Assembly: GCA_018653485.1 (NCBI GenBank)
Contig: JABHZE010000005.1
Coordinates: 1-64,000, forward strand
Length of the DNA: 64,000 nucleotides
Source of the DNA: an archaeon
Lineage (GTDB): Archaea; Nanobdellota; Nanobdellia; Pacearchaeales; GW2011-AR1
Direction of reading: 5' to 3'
Part shown: positions 1 through 49,905 of the stretch, piece by piece
How the letters are laid out: the number at the start of each line of letters is the position of its first letter
Numbering within the stretch: position 1 is the first letter of the stretch
Program-made: the position numbers and the translations under genes
The notes under the pieces: generated by a model
Seen by the model: only the letters and a program-made list of their open reading frames with translations
What the model was told of the DNA's origin: nothing
Databases searched by the model: none

Positions 1-49
1 GCGCCACGCCTTGCAGGCTCTCATCACAATATTCTTTGTTCTTCAGGTC

Positions 50-161
50 TTTGAACAGCGGTTTAACAGAAAATCCTTGCAGAATTTTCCCAAATTAATT
101 TTCAGCTCTCTTCCTTTCAGTCAGGAGGAAAATAAACTTCGTTAACCCGCAAACGTTATGT
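50..161 (+). mobile_element. integron attC-like site 1 (imperfect palindrome)
   Basis: GCGGTTTAAC (58-67) pairs with GTTAACCCGC (141-150) with one mismatch; flanked by TTTGAAC (50-56) and GTTATGT (155-161) in the 1L/1R positions. Confidence 0.5.
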
Positions 162-218
162 GCAATATTACTTGGTTGTTCCCAAAAGATTTATATGTTA
201 ATAGGCCTATAACCAATT

Positions 219-620
219 ATGATTGTTGAATTTGAAGAAAGATATAAAGCCCAAGTTTGGCCGAATTTGGATAATGAAAATAGGAAATTATTTAAAAATT
301 CATTATTTAAAAAATTTTTATTTGTTGAAAAAAATATAGTAAAGGGTTGGATTTTATTACAGCCATCAAAAGATCGTTTGCTTCTTGATTGGATTTTCGT
401 TTTGGAGGAATTCCAAAAACAAAAGATCGGAACCAAACTTTTAGATCATGTAAAAAAATTTGCAAAAAATAAAAATTTTCGTGGAATAAGTGTTAATACT
501 GGAAGCCAAACTAATTGGGCAAGAATTTTTTATGAGAAAAATGGATTTAAACAAGTTGGGAGTGTTAAAAAATTCTTCAAATTCGATAAAGAGCATATAT
601 TCTATTGGTTTGAAGTATAG
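219..620 (+). CDS. GNAT family N-acetyltransferase
   Basis: 133-aa ORF; LLLDWIFVLEEFQKQKIGTKLLDHVKKFAKNKNFRGISVNTGSQTNWARIFYEKNGFKQVG is a typical GNAT core. Confidence 0.85.
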   Translation: MIVEFEERYKAQVWPNLDNENRKLFKNSLFKKFLFVEKNIVKGWILLQPSKDRLLLDWIFVLEEFQKQKIGTKLLDHVKKFAKNKNFRGISVNTGSQTNWARIFYEKNGFKQVGSVKKFFKFDKEHIFYWFEV

Positions 621-639
621 GAACAACCTGTGTCATACT

Positions 640-659
640 ATCGACTTCGTCGATTTTTT
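640..659 (+). terminator. intrinsic-type terminator hairpin
   Basis: ATCGAC-TTC-GTCGAT followed by a T run (654-659), 20 bp after the GNAT stop. Confidence 0.5.
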
Positions 660-673
660 CTTGCATAAAAAAC

Positions 674-754
674 ACATAACAGCGGTTTAATCATTCAGTC
701 TTGCAGCCTTCACCCTAATTCTTACAGAACTAGATTAACCCGCGAACGTTAGTT
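674..754 (+). mobile_element. integron attC-like site 2
   Basis: ACATAAC (674-680)-A-GCGGTTTAAT (682-691) ... ATTAACCCGC (734-743)-GAAC-GTTAGTT (748-754); arms covary with site 1. Confidence 0.55.
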
Positions 755-808
755 TCAATTTCCTACGATTTTTTTCCACCCCAGATAGTCTGGGTGAGCA
801 CTAATACT

Positions 809-1162
809 TTATTCAGTTTCAACCGCGATACCAATTAAATGGACGGGATTTTCTGTATATCTTAATACTTCTTTTCCATCTGGATCAATTAATCTATAGC
901 TATAACTCCATGATCTGTCTATCCTGGGGTGTTTTATAGTCTGTATATCTTCCCTTTTAAATCCTTGTTTTCTATCGACTAAATAGGACTCGATGGATTC
1001 CCCATCAACTCTTGGATTTGGTTTTCCATCATAAGCTACAACTTTTAATCCTGCTTTCTGAATCAATGGAAGAGTTTCTTTTATGCTTCCATCTAACCCA
1101 AGCATGTCTACAGGAATTCTCCAGCATCTTCTTTCAGTAGTTCTTGTTTTAATCATTAACAT
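809..1162 (-). CDS. hypothetical protein
   Basis: 117-aa ORF between two attC-like sites; no family recognised. Confidence 0.6.
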   Translation of the reverse strand: MLMIKTRTTERRCWRIPVDMLGLDGSIKETLPLIQKAGLKVVAYDGKPNPRVDGESIESYLVDRKQGFKREDIQTIKHPRIDRSWSYSYRLIDPDGKEVLRYTENPVHLIGIAVETE

Positions 1163-1281
1163 TTTCTTGCCTCCATATTATTTACTTATTAGTAGTAATA
1201 TATTTAGCATATATAAAAATTGTTATAGAAATTTAAATAAATTAGCAAGATTTATAAAGATAGTTAACTAATATATAAAAT

Positions 1282-2250
1282 ATGGTATTAGATATTAAAG
1301 ATAAGAAATTACTATACGAAATAGATCTTAATGCAAGATTAGGAACTTCATCACTTGGAAAAAGAATTGGTTTAAGCCAGGAAGGTGTTTTTTATAGGCT
1401 TAAAAGATTTGAGAGAAATAATATAATTTCAGGATATATAACCTTACTTAATTTTGGGAAACTAGGTTATACTGGTTATGGAGTTTATGCAAGATTTCAA
1501 AATGTAAATCCAGAAAAAAAAGCAAAAATAATCAGGGAATTAAAGAAGAATAAACATATCTATTGGATTGCCGAATATGGAGGAAAATATGATTTAGCTT
1601 TTGCAATTATGGCAAAAAATATCATTCAGTTTAATGAAATTTTCACAAAAATATCATCAAAATATCATCATTATCTAATAGATTTTAATATTTCTATTCG
1701 TGTGGAACTTGTTCAATACCCTAGAGACTACCTCTTAGACAAAAAAAATGTGATGGATAAAAGTCCCTATTTTGGGAAATATATTGAAGAAGAAAATATA
1801 GAAGACATTGATACAAATATTCTTAAAAAAATTTCTGAATTTGCAAGACTTTCGGTATTGGAAATTTCAAATAAGATTAAGAATTCTCCTCAAACAGTCA
1901 CCTTACATTTAAAAAAACTTGAAAAAAAAGGGATTATTCAGGGATATAGTTCTAAAATTCATTGTCAAGAATTTGGATACGAGAGTTACCAATTATTTGT
2001 TTGTGCAAATAACATAACTGAAAAAAGGAAAAAAGAATTATTTTCCTATTGCCAAAATAATCCAAATATTATATTTTGTATAGAAACTGTTGGTAAATGG
2101 AACTTTGAAATAATTTATGAAATCGAAGACCAAAAAAAGCTTCAAGATTTAATTATTGAATTTCGATCAAAATTTTCAGATATAATAACAGATATTGAAA
2201 GTATAGTTTTATTTAATCATTATCTAAAATATAATCAATTTCCTTTTTAA
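1282..2250 (+). CDS. Lrp/AsnC-like transcriptional regulator with two HTH modules
   Basis: LDIKDKKLLYEIDLNARLGTSSLGKRIGLSQEGVFYRLKRFERNNIISGY and a second HTH plus RAM-like domain in the C-terminal half. Confidence 0.85.
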   Translation: MVLDIKDKKLLYEIDLNARLGTSSLGKRIGLSQEGVFYRLKRFERNNIISGYITLLNFGKLGYTGYGVYARFQNVNPEKKAKIIRELKKNKHIYWIAEYGGKYDLAFAIMAKNIIQFNEIFTKISSKYHHYLIDFNISIRVELVQYPRDYLLDKKNVMDKSPYFGKYIEEENIEDIDTNILKKISEFARLSVLEISNKIKNSPQTVTLHLKKLEKKGIIQGYSSKIHCQEFGYESYQLFVCANNITEKRKKELFSYCQNNPNIIFCIETVGKWNFEIIYEIEDQKKLQDLIIEFRSKFSDIITDIESIVLFNHYLKYNQFPF

Positions 2251-2308
2251 TATGCTCACCCAGTTATTTTATGGATGGCCAAGTGTCCATCCCACCACTG
2301 AAGATTTT

Positions 2309-2485
2309 AACTAACTACTAACTAAAGAATTTTCTTCCCGCAGATTTAAACTCACTTCGCTTTGCTTGTGCCTTCGGTCTTTGAACAGCGGTTTAATCAC
2401 TCCATTACATTCCATCCTAATTCTTCACACTTATTCAATATCCCAATTTATGTTTCAGAACTAAATTAAACCACAAACGTTAAAT
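2309..2485 (+). mobile_element. integron attC-like site 3 (composite)
   Basis: AACTAAC at 2309-2315; GCGGTTTAAT (2388-2397) pairs with ATTAAACCAC (2465-2474); GTTAAAT at 2479-2485 fits GTTRRRY. Confidence 0.4.
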
Positions 2486-47826: not shown

Positions 47827-48801
47827 ATGGAGAATGAAATACTTGATTTAGACCTAAAAGACAAAAAGATACTTTTTGAATTAGATAAGAACTCAAGAAT
47901 AAGTATTACAGAACTTGCAAGAAAAGTTGGAGTAAGTAAACAAGTTTGTCAATATAGGTTAAGCAATTTAGAAAATAATAAAATTATTTTAAATTACCAT
48001 ACTGTTCCTGCAACATATAGATTTGGCAAGATTGCATATAAGGTATATTTGAAATTACATGATATTAATGAAAAAAAACATCAAGAAATTATTAATTTTC
48101 TACTAAAAAATAAAGATGTTTTTTGGATAGGGGAATGTCATGGAAAATGGGATTTAATTTTTGGGATTTGGGCTAAAGATATGGAAGAATTCTTTAATGC
48201 ACATGATAAAATTCTTGATAAATTTAGTAAATTTATTCAAGAAAAAGAACTATCTGTTTCAAGAGAAAATATCCAATATAATAGAAAATGGTTATTTTCT
48301 AATCCAAACGAAGAGAGAAAAATGTTTAATTTTGGAGAAAAAGAAGAACCTATTAAGCTAAATGATATAGATTTAAAAATAATTGAGATACTTGTTAGTA
48401 ATTCAAGAACTAGAATTATTGATATTGCAGAAAAATTAAATATTACTGCAGAGGTTGCAAGCTATAGAATTAAACAATTAGAAAAAAAATATTTAATCAA
48501 AGGTTACAAGTGTTTATTTAATACAAAAAAACTAGGTTATTCAACAAACAAAGCTTTTGTTTATTTTAAAAATATAACAGAACAAAGAAGAAAAGAGTTT
48601 TTAGATTATTGTAAAAATCATAAAAACATAATCAATATTGTAATAACTTTTGCACCATGGGATTTAGAAATTATGTTTGAAACTAAAAATTATGAAGAAT
48701 ATTTTAAAATAATGGAAGAAATAAAAAACAAATTCTCAGATATAATCAAATTTTATGAAAGTATTTTAATAAATAAGGAACCTAAACAGATTTTTGCTTG
48801 A
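47827..48801 (+). CDS. Lrp/AsnC-like regulator with two HTH modules (paralogue of 1282-2250)
   Basis: LDLDLKDKKILFELDKNSRISITELARKVGVSKQVCQYRLSNLENNKII; same architecture as 1282-2250. Confidence 0.87.
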   Translation: MENEILDLDLKDKKILFELDKNSRISITELARKVGVSKQVCQYRLSNLENNKIILNYHTVPATYRFGKIAYKVYLKLHDINEKKHQEIINFLLKNKDVFWIGECHGKWDLIFGIWAKDMEEFFNAHDKILDKFSKFIQEKELSVSRENIQYNRKWLFSNPNEERKMFNFGEKEEPIKLNDIDLKIIEILVSNSRTRIIDIAEKLNITAEVASYRIKQLEKKYLIKGYKCLFNTKKLGYSTNKAFVYFKNITEQRRKEFLDYCKNHKNIINIVITFAPWDLEIMFETKNYEEYFKIMEEIKNKFSDIIKFYESILINKEPKQIFA

Positions 48802-48883
48802 TACTATACCTACACTTCTCTTGAATTTTGTTTGCTCATTAAATTCTTGTCTCAAAAATCAAAGATTTTCTCAATCACCTAAC

Positions 48884-48945
48884 AGCGGTTCAAAGGAGTT
48901 CCGTTTCACTCCACTCCAAATTTAAATCTGAGCCGCCACCCAAAA
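48884..48945 (+). mobile_element. degenerate attC-like site 4
   Basis: ACCTAAC-A-GCGGTTCA pairs with TGAGCCGC (one G-T wobble); no 1R core recognised. Confidence 0.3.
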
Positions 48946-49002
48946 AGAAAATTCTCTAAATCTCCTAGGAAGATATATAAATAAAAAATAACTATCAATT
49001 TT

Positions 49003-49767
49003 ATGTTTATCACTAATACTATTCTAAATCTACTTGTACTTATTTGGTCAGTAATTGGAGTAATAATATTCTTCACCCTATTAAAAATAAAAGCACCTTA
49101 TGGAAGATTTTCAAAAAAGGGATGGGGAAAACTATTTGAATCAAGAATTGGATTTTTGCTCATGGAATTTATGGGTTCTGTTTTCTTTCTAGTATTATTT
49201 GTAATTTATTCAATAAAACTGAATAAGATTAACCTTATTTTAGTTATTATTTTTATTCTCTGGCAATTTGCATATGTTTACAGGGGTTTTATTTACCCTT
49301 TCTTTCGAAAAAAAGGTAAAAAAATCCCTTTATCAATCATTTTTATGGCAATGATATTTAATTCCATAAACTCTTTCTTAATTGTTACATCAATATTTCT
49401 ATCAATTAATCAATACACCCAAGGTTGGTTATTTGATATTAGATTTATCTCAGGATTAAGCCTTTTCATAATCGGTTACTATGCTAATGTTAAATCAGAT
49501 ATTATCCTTAGAAAACTTAGAGAAAACAAAAAAGATGAAATCCCCAGAGGATTTTTGTTTAATTACGTTTCATCACCTCATTATTTTAGTGAGATAATCA
49601 AATGGATAGGATTTGCATTATTAATCTGGACTTGGGCAGGATTATCTTTTGTTATTTGGACATGTGCAAATTTAATACCCAGAGCAATTGCTCACCATAA
49701 ATGGTATCATAAAAATTTAAAAAATTATCCCAAGAATAGAACTATATTAATTCCTAAAATATTTTAA
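49003..49767 (+). CDS. steroid 5-alpha-reductase (SRD5A)-like membrane enzyme
   Basis: APYGRFS near N-terminus and C-terminal GFLFNYVSSPHYFSEIIKWIGFALLIWTWAGLSFVIWTCANLIPRAIAHHKWYHKNLKNYPKNRTILIPKIF. Confidence 0.82.
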   Translation: MFITNTILNLLVLIWSVIGVIIFFTLLKIKAPYGRFSKKGWGKLFESRIGFLLMEFMGSVFFLVLFVIYSIKLNKINLILVIIFILWQFAYVYRGFIYPFFRKKGKKIPLSIIFMAMIFNSINSFLIVTSIFLSINQYTQGWLFDIRFISGLSLFIIGYYANVKSDIILRKLRENKKDEIPRGFLFNYVSSPHYFSEIIKWIGFALLIWTWAGLSFVIWTCANLIPRAIAHHKWYHKNLKNYPKNRTILIPKIF

Positions 49768-49774
49768 TTAATAA

Positions 49775-49905
49775 CTAACTAACGAATTTTCTCCCACCTT
49801 CAGATTTAAACTCGCGAGGTCATTTCATTCCACTCGCGCCACGCCTTGCAGGCTCTCATCACAATATCCTTTGTTCTTCAGGTCTTTGAACAGCGGTTAA
49901 ACTCA
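49775..49905 (+). mobile_element. degenerate attC-like element 5, includes copy of window-start repeat
   Basis: AACTAACGAATTTTCTCCC...CAGATTTAAACTCGCGAGG...TCTTTGAACAGCGGTTAAAC; 49836-49898 matches 1-63 with one mismatch. Confidence 0.4.

Follow-up and report, generated by a model that had tools for sequence, protein, structure and literature searches.

A probable archaeal integron-like cassette array served by a Xer-like recombinase without the IntI insert

The analysis of a 64,000-nucleotide stretch of archaeal DNA, here called the window, confirms three attC-like sites at its left end (54-158, 678-751 and 2384-2482). They belong to an integron-like array of cassettes that is interrupted where contigs end, with more pieces on two other contigs of the same genome (C4 and C6). 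This left end is very probably one piece of an archaeal integron-like array run by a Xer-like recombinase that does not carry the insert specific to the integron integrase IntI. The reading draws on the observed structure of the sites, the boundaries of the cassettes, the matching between attI-like sites and cassettes, a recombinase encoded divergently from the array, and the absence of both the IntI insert and IntI genes. The window piece and the C4 recombinase lie on different contigs of the assembly and presumably belong to one array.

Across the whole window, AACAGCGGTTTAA occurs exactly at 54, 678 and 2384, and the 3' arms TTAACCCGC-RAACGTTA are present at all positions given in the first-pass annotation, which had described three palindromes with this shared motif. 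Allowing up to two mismatches yields five matches against 1.19 expected, a number reached in none of 100 shuffles. Site 1 (50-163, + strand) has R'' TTTGAAC at 50-56, L'' from 58, L' to 150 and R' GTTATGTG from 155; it scores 94 bits with R1, a covariance model of five sites from the window and C4 of which it is itself a member, and 89.8 bits with the improved model R2. Site 2 (674-757, +) combines R'' ACATAAC at 674-680 with a stem of GCGGTTTAAT/ATTAACCCGC and R' GTTAGTTT from 748, and site 3 (2380-2488, +; 51 bits with R2) has R'' TTTGAAC at 2380-2386 and R' GTTAAATTC from 2479. The covariation of the arms that had been read from the letters was borne out, as 4 of 13 stem pairs are changed on both sides over five sites and only 3-4 of 500 shuffles are as high. 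Folding of the bottom strand, proposed earlier as a check, gave its best value at site 2 (z -2.07), the folding energies of the whole sites being unremarkable, and no Rfam family matches the window sites.

The units between these sites carry one or two genes, including a GNAT acetyltransferase, just as previously described. The GNAT cassette (156-748, +) starts with TTATGTG (GTTATGTG) and ends in R'' ACATAAC, which is complementary to its own start (8 of 11 positions including the core; 5 of 6 arm bases), and its acetyltransferase gene (219-620, +; Pfam PF13508, E 1.4e-13) has a TATA-like element, recognized by eye, about 25-30 bp upstream. The second cassette (749-2479, +) has two genes, an ORF in the opposite orientation (809-1162, -; no Pfam match) and a double Lrp/AsnC-type regulator (1282-2250, +; PF13412, E 1.5e-17; PF13404, E 4e-11). 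None of the 6 arm bases of its R'' at site 3 agrees with its own start; judging by the sequence, AACTAAC near 2310 would fit that start, and the second cassette may represent two fused cassettes that have lost one site.

Two half or degenerate site copies that the first-pass annotation did not list are found at 48781-49902 of the window, beside another Lrp/AsnC-like gene. The degenerate site (48873-48940, +; TAACAGCGGTTCA ... TGAGCCGC) has its motif match at 48881, is without a GTT box and is not detected by the covariance models, and the half-site (49758-49902, +; motif match at 49889) ends in the 5' arm and is without a 3' arm. Since 49836-49902 is 97% identical to window positions 1-67 and 49758-49813 is similar to 2304-2353, the repeat extends to a leader of some 130 bp that precedes the 5' arm. 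These copies are likely remnants of old cassettes.

In the rest of the genome, a draft assembly of 85.55% completeness, the only exact match to AACAGCGGTTTAA lies at C4:1342, near a second site type (AACTAACAGGGCTTAA...TTAAGCCCGATGTTCATC). A search with R1 added one site at the right end of C6. All six sites (window, C4 and C6) lie close to where contigs end, which is what a repetitive array that interrupts assembly would produce, and the genome has four array-bearing contig ends (C2 left, C4 left, C4 right and C6 right). The scatter of the palindrome over unrelated intergenic regions that the first-pass annotation had named as a refutation was not seen, high-scoring sites occurring nowhere else in the genome. 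The C4 cassette starts with GTTCATCGC, and the reverse complement of its R'' is GTTCAACGC. In C6 the core is changed on both sides with pairing kept, from AAC/GTT to AGC/GCT, within a tandem of two near-identical short cassettes without genes (L061:12589-12840).

In integrons, the R'' that ends a cassette must pair with the R' that starts the same cassette, because both arms form one site in the free circle. Relatives of the genome follow this logic. Of 200 genomes from the same order, 63 gave sites with R1 and 89 with R2, and the R''/R' arms of 82 consecutive site pairs from the order agree at 3.85 of 6 positions versus 2.39 when permuted (maximum 2.94 in 10,000). A further 72 pairs, taken at 40 loci in genomes from other families within the class and independent of model building, reach 5.18 of 6 versus 2.92 permuted (maximum 3.46) with 45 exact matches, and non-adjacent pairs in this set match at only 2.74 of 6. 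Stem covariation in the relatives amounts to 174 compensatory cells versus 49.7 in shuffled and at most 27 in slid controls, in an alignment fitted to the structure, which favours a compensatory signal. Stems were best without a single bulge in 214 of 233 cases, wobble pairs blurring the count of extrahelical bases, and the commonest predicted feature is a 2-nt bulge between R and L. The spacers are conserved in their asymmetry (1 nt versus 3 nt), and all site alignments show (C/A)AAT at a fixed distance after R' and GGKC before R'', for which we know of no bacterial attC counterpart. The exact site pattern was absent from a genome contig collection, viral contigs and 55 relatives, the site family being too diverse for one pattern.

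The first-pass annotation saw no integrase gene in the window, and none was found within its 64 kb; the genome does carry tyrosine recombinases on C3, C4 and C5. The candidate integrase is a Xer-like tyrosine recombinase of 281 aa (C4:140234-141079, -), whose 5' side faces the contig end. About 90 bp upstream of it, an 11-6-11 inverted repeat is followed by GTTCATCGCAAT at about C4:141162, and the C4 cassettes begin with TTCATCGCAAT, the same as the start of this attI-like GTTCATCGCAAT. The recombinase is divergent from the attI-like site, and the first attC lies beyond the contig end. The search for further sites and an intI gene that had been advised yielded sites on C4 and C6, together with a Xer-like recombinase in place of IntI. 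Most attI-like sites among the relatives (for example, L055:3230-3276) likewise have a dif-like inverted repeat (11-6-11) that abuts the GTT insertion point, and its right arm resembles an archaeal dif arm.

Close relatives of the C4 recombinase (56-65% identity) group in a clade of their own, well separated from the others (clade A, support 100/100), separate from the host XerA clade (99/99), and a wider tree likewise places all array recombinases outside XerA, with IntI1 on a long branch. NCBIfam names the C4 recombinase archaeal XerA (NF040815), the same name that it gives to host XerA; a second copy on C5 is of XerA type, and the separate clade speaks against orthology of the C4-type array recombinase to chromosomal XerA. 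With two exceptions, the array loci studied in the order have their sites upstream of the recombinase on the divergent strand, a count biased by the inclusion of loci chosen for having both. The 40 loci picked by attC matches alone are free of this bias; a divergent recombinase lies within 6 kb in 16 of them and at 6.7-6.9 kb in two more, with zero recombinases pointing the other way, and contigs end on the 5' side of the recombinase in 32 of 41 cases. Of 45 loci, 26 have an attI arm identical to the R'' of the first cassette, where 20,000 permutations give a mean of 1.1 and at most 6, which indicates that enzyme, attI and array are one unit. Sites are present in 35 of 42 clade A genomes versus 54 of 158 others (Fisher p 1.4e-8, relatedness ignored); seven clade A genomes gave no site match, and in G095 and G101 no site was found within several kb upstream of the recombinase. 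Bacterial Xer-like neighbours had no such sites, viral contigs held no close relative of the C4 recombinase (best 35%), and a recombinase scan of the genome contig collection was dominated by bacterial XerC/D and Bacteroidota recombinases.

The C4 recombinase is without the IntI-specific insert of about 43 residues (I2 domain). Its match to TIGR02249 falls below the cut-off with a gap over the insert, its K-to-H spacing is 63 versus 106 in IntI1, and alignment to PDB 2a3v leaves about 17 residues versus 59 at the insert region; array recombinases with a locatable motif have a Xer-like K-to-H spacing of 60-67 residues. The I2 helix of IntI recognises folded attC, and its acquisition is regarded as the source of the single-strand activity of IntI, Xer enzymes being without I2 and intermediates lacking (PMC7790495). 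Folded single-stranded DNA can nevertheless be a substrate for a Xer enzyme that has no such helix, as in IMEX elements that use host XerCD, for example phages that integrate in this form (PMC7790495).

Each cassette is a short unit ending in a palindromic attC-like site, and in the mechanism that we propose its excised form would be a circle. The site of this circle would fold to a hairpin with an L stem of 10-11 bp, a 2-nt bulge and an R stem, the last made of R'' paired with the R' at the cassette's own start. We infer that the C4 recombinase performs the cassette reaction, probably acting on the folded single strand; it would join the cassette at G^TT to the attI-like site that immediately precedes its gene, a target formed by a dif-like inverted repeat followed by GTTNNNNNN(C/A)AAT. 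New cassettes would then enter beside the recombinase, with older ones pushed outward. Alternatively, the palindromes could be double-stranded dif-like sites for a Xer-like enzyme with no single-stranded step, a reading consistent with a recombinase without the helix by which IntI recognises folded attC (PMC7790495) and with the dif-like 11-6-11 inverted repeat held by the attI-like site. However, only a site that folds would require the cassette-wide R''/R' complementarity and the covariation of the stem, and the conserved asymmetry of the 1-nt and 3-nt spacers fits the choice of a hairpin strand, which makes the purely double-stranded reading unlikely.

The first-pass annotation had labelled the sites CALIN-like and pointed to integrons reported in archaea, and the literature agrees on the latter, as archaeal CALINs and rare archaeal IntI have been published (PMC9668308). 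These reports and the incompleteness of the genome would allow for an ordinary CALIN, its cassettes made and moved by a standard IntI either absent from the assembly or supplied in trans by other cells. Yet IntI (TIGR02249) was above the cut-off in none of the 200 order genomes and in none of 343 from the phylum, of which 237 are at least 90% complete, though sites are carried by 119 of the 343 and by 87 of the 237; the phylum result rests on TIGR02249 working as NCBI uses it, since the controls gave no match. The arrays are moreover headed by a dedicated recombinase with a matching attI, and the likeness of the sites to class 1 attC is slight (one match, 7.9 bits), so that an ordinary CALIN appears very unlikely. 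The CALIN label itself is made doubtful by the recombinase that, in the same genome, sits with an attI-like site at the C4 right end. The window contig does have at least two attC-like sites within 4 kb and no integrase nearby, but contig ends cut the arrays and interrupt the link between the window piece and this recombinase, and in relatives a recombinase stands at the array head. The implied membership among IntI integrons did not hold either, with IntI absent from all group genomes searched. The array is laid out exactly as a bacterial integron is, but it is not classed with the IntI integrons, since a test for their defining domain showed it to be absent. Surveys detect integrons and IntI by requiring the IntI-specific domain (PMC9668308), and Xer-type arrays would thus be missed or filed as CALINs. 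No paper on Xer-type integron integrases in archaea was found, preprints and subscription papers being outside the scope of the search.

That the palindromes are dispersed intergenic repeats, such as terminators or MITE-like elements, with no cassette function might be suggested by the half-copies at 48.8-49.9 kb, but the confinement of high-scoring sites to contig ends in this genome and the relatives' sites, which are spaced as cassettes on one strand with a divergent recombinase at the head, render this extremely improbable; it also gives no reason for the R''/R' and attI matching, and the boundary tests contradict it. Bacterial contamination of the bin has a negligible probability, even for a draft genome, as the C4 recombinase lies 1-2.3 kb from genes for L35ae and archaeal-type L16 (L16/L10e), the same system is present in 119 of 343 phylum genomes, and GC is 0.287-0.297 across all contigs. 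The boundary logic, the attI-like site, the divergent recombinase and the adjoining archaeal ribosomal-protein genes together strongly support the original proposal of an attC-type cassette array on an archaeal chromosome.

The 74 cassettes examined in relatives have a median length of 1.1 kb and mostly one ORF, with 55 ORFs oriented with the attC direction and 51 against it. Cargo families seen include GNAT, methyltransferases, TrmB and Lrp regulators, nitroreductase, uracil-DNA glycosylase, NYN, GmrSD, retron-type reverse transcriptase and candidate defence proteins. One cassette-borne reverse transcriptase (L359:864-2336) falls near defence-associated and retron reverse transcriptases (PADLOC RT_III-A, 3.2e-81). 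The same candidate defence family (PADLOC PDC-S18) is found in cassettes at L341:11497-12405 and L343:7778-8689, in genomes of different families, which suggests cassette exchange between them.

Compared with IntI integrons (class 1, sedentary chromosomal and the archaeal ones of PMC9668308), the array shares cassettes that end in palindromic AAC...GTT sites, R''/R' complementarity within the cassette, an attI at the head, a divergent tyrosine recombinase, and short, varied cargo such as GNAT. It differs in its recombinase, which has no insert; in its L stem, which appears mostly uninterrupted, with a predicted 2-nt bulge between R and L, whereas classic attC has a spacer and extrahelical bases; in the CAAT/AAAT conserved after R'; and, relative to class 1 integrons, in cassette genes of both orientations. 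With CALINs it has in common an attC array with no IntI nearby, and tools that need an IntI-specific profile would call it one (PMC9668308), but here a non-IntI recombinase and an attI-like site head the arrays. Archaeal XerA/dif (PDB 4a8e and 5hxy) offers the closest fold and sequence family (E 8.5e-48; NF040815) and a counterpart to the dif-like repeat in attI, although the recombinase clade is separate from the host XerA of the same genomes and is linked to cassette arrays. IMEX with host XerCD provides a precedent for a Xer enzyme without the I2 helix that is usable on a folded single strand (PMC7790495); unlike in IMEX, the recombinase here is dedicated, array-linked and presumably moves gene cassettes.

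The array may therefore represent a hitherto undescribed kind of natural integron. We consider the chances even that it stands for an archaeal integron type found across the class, with folded attC handled by Xer-type recombinases that have no I2, either of independent origin or as the surviving relative of a Xer-like ancestor that gave rise to bacterial IntI through the gain of I2. If true, a simple Xer-like integron in about one-third of the sampled phylum genomes would make the origin of integrons testable, would reveal a new route of gene capture in archaea with small genomes, and would explain many attC arrays that have no IntI.
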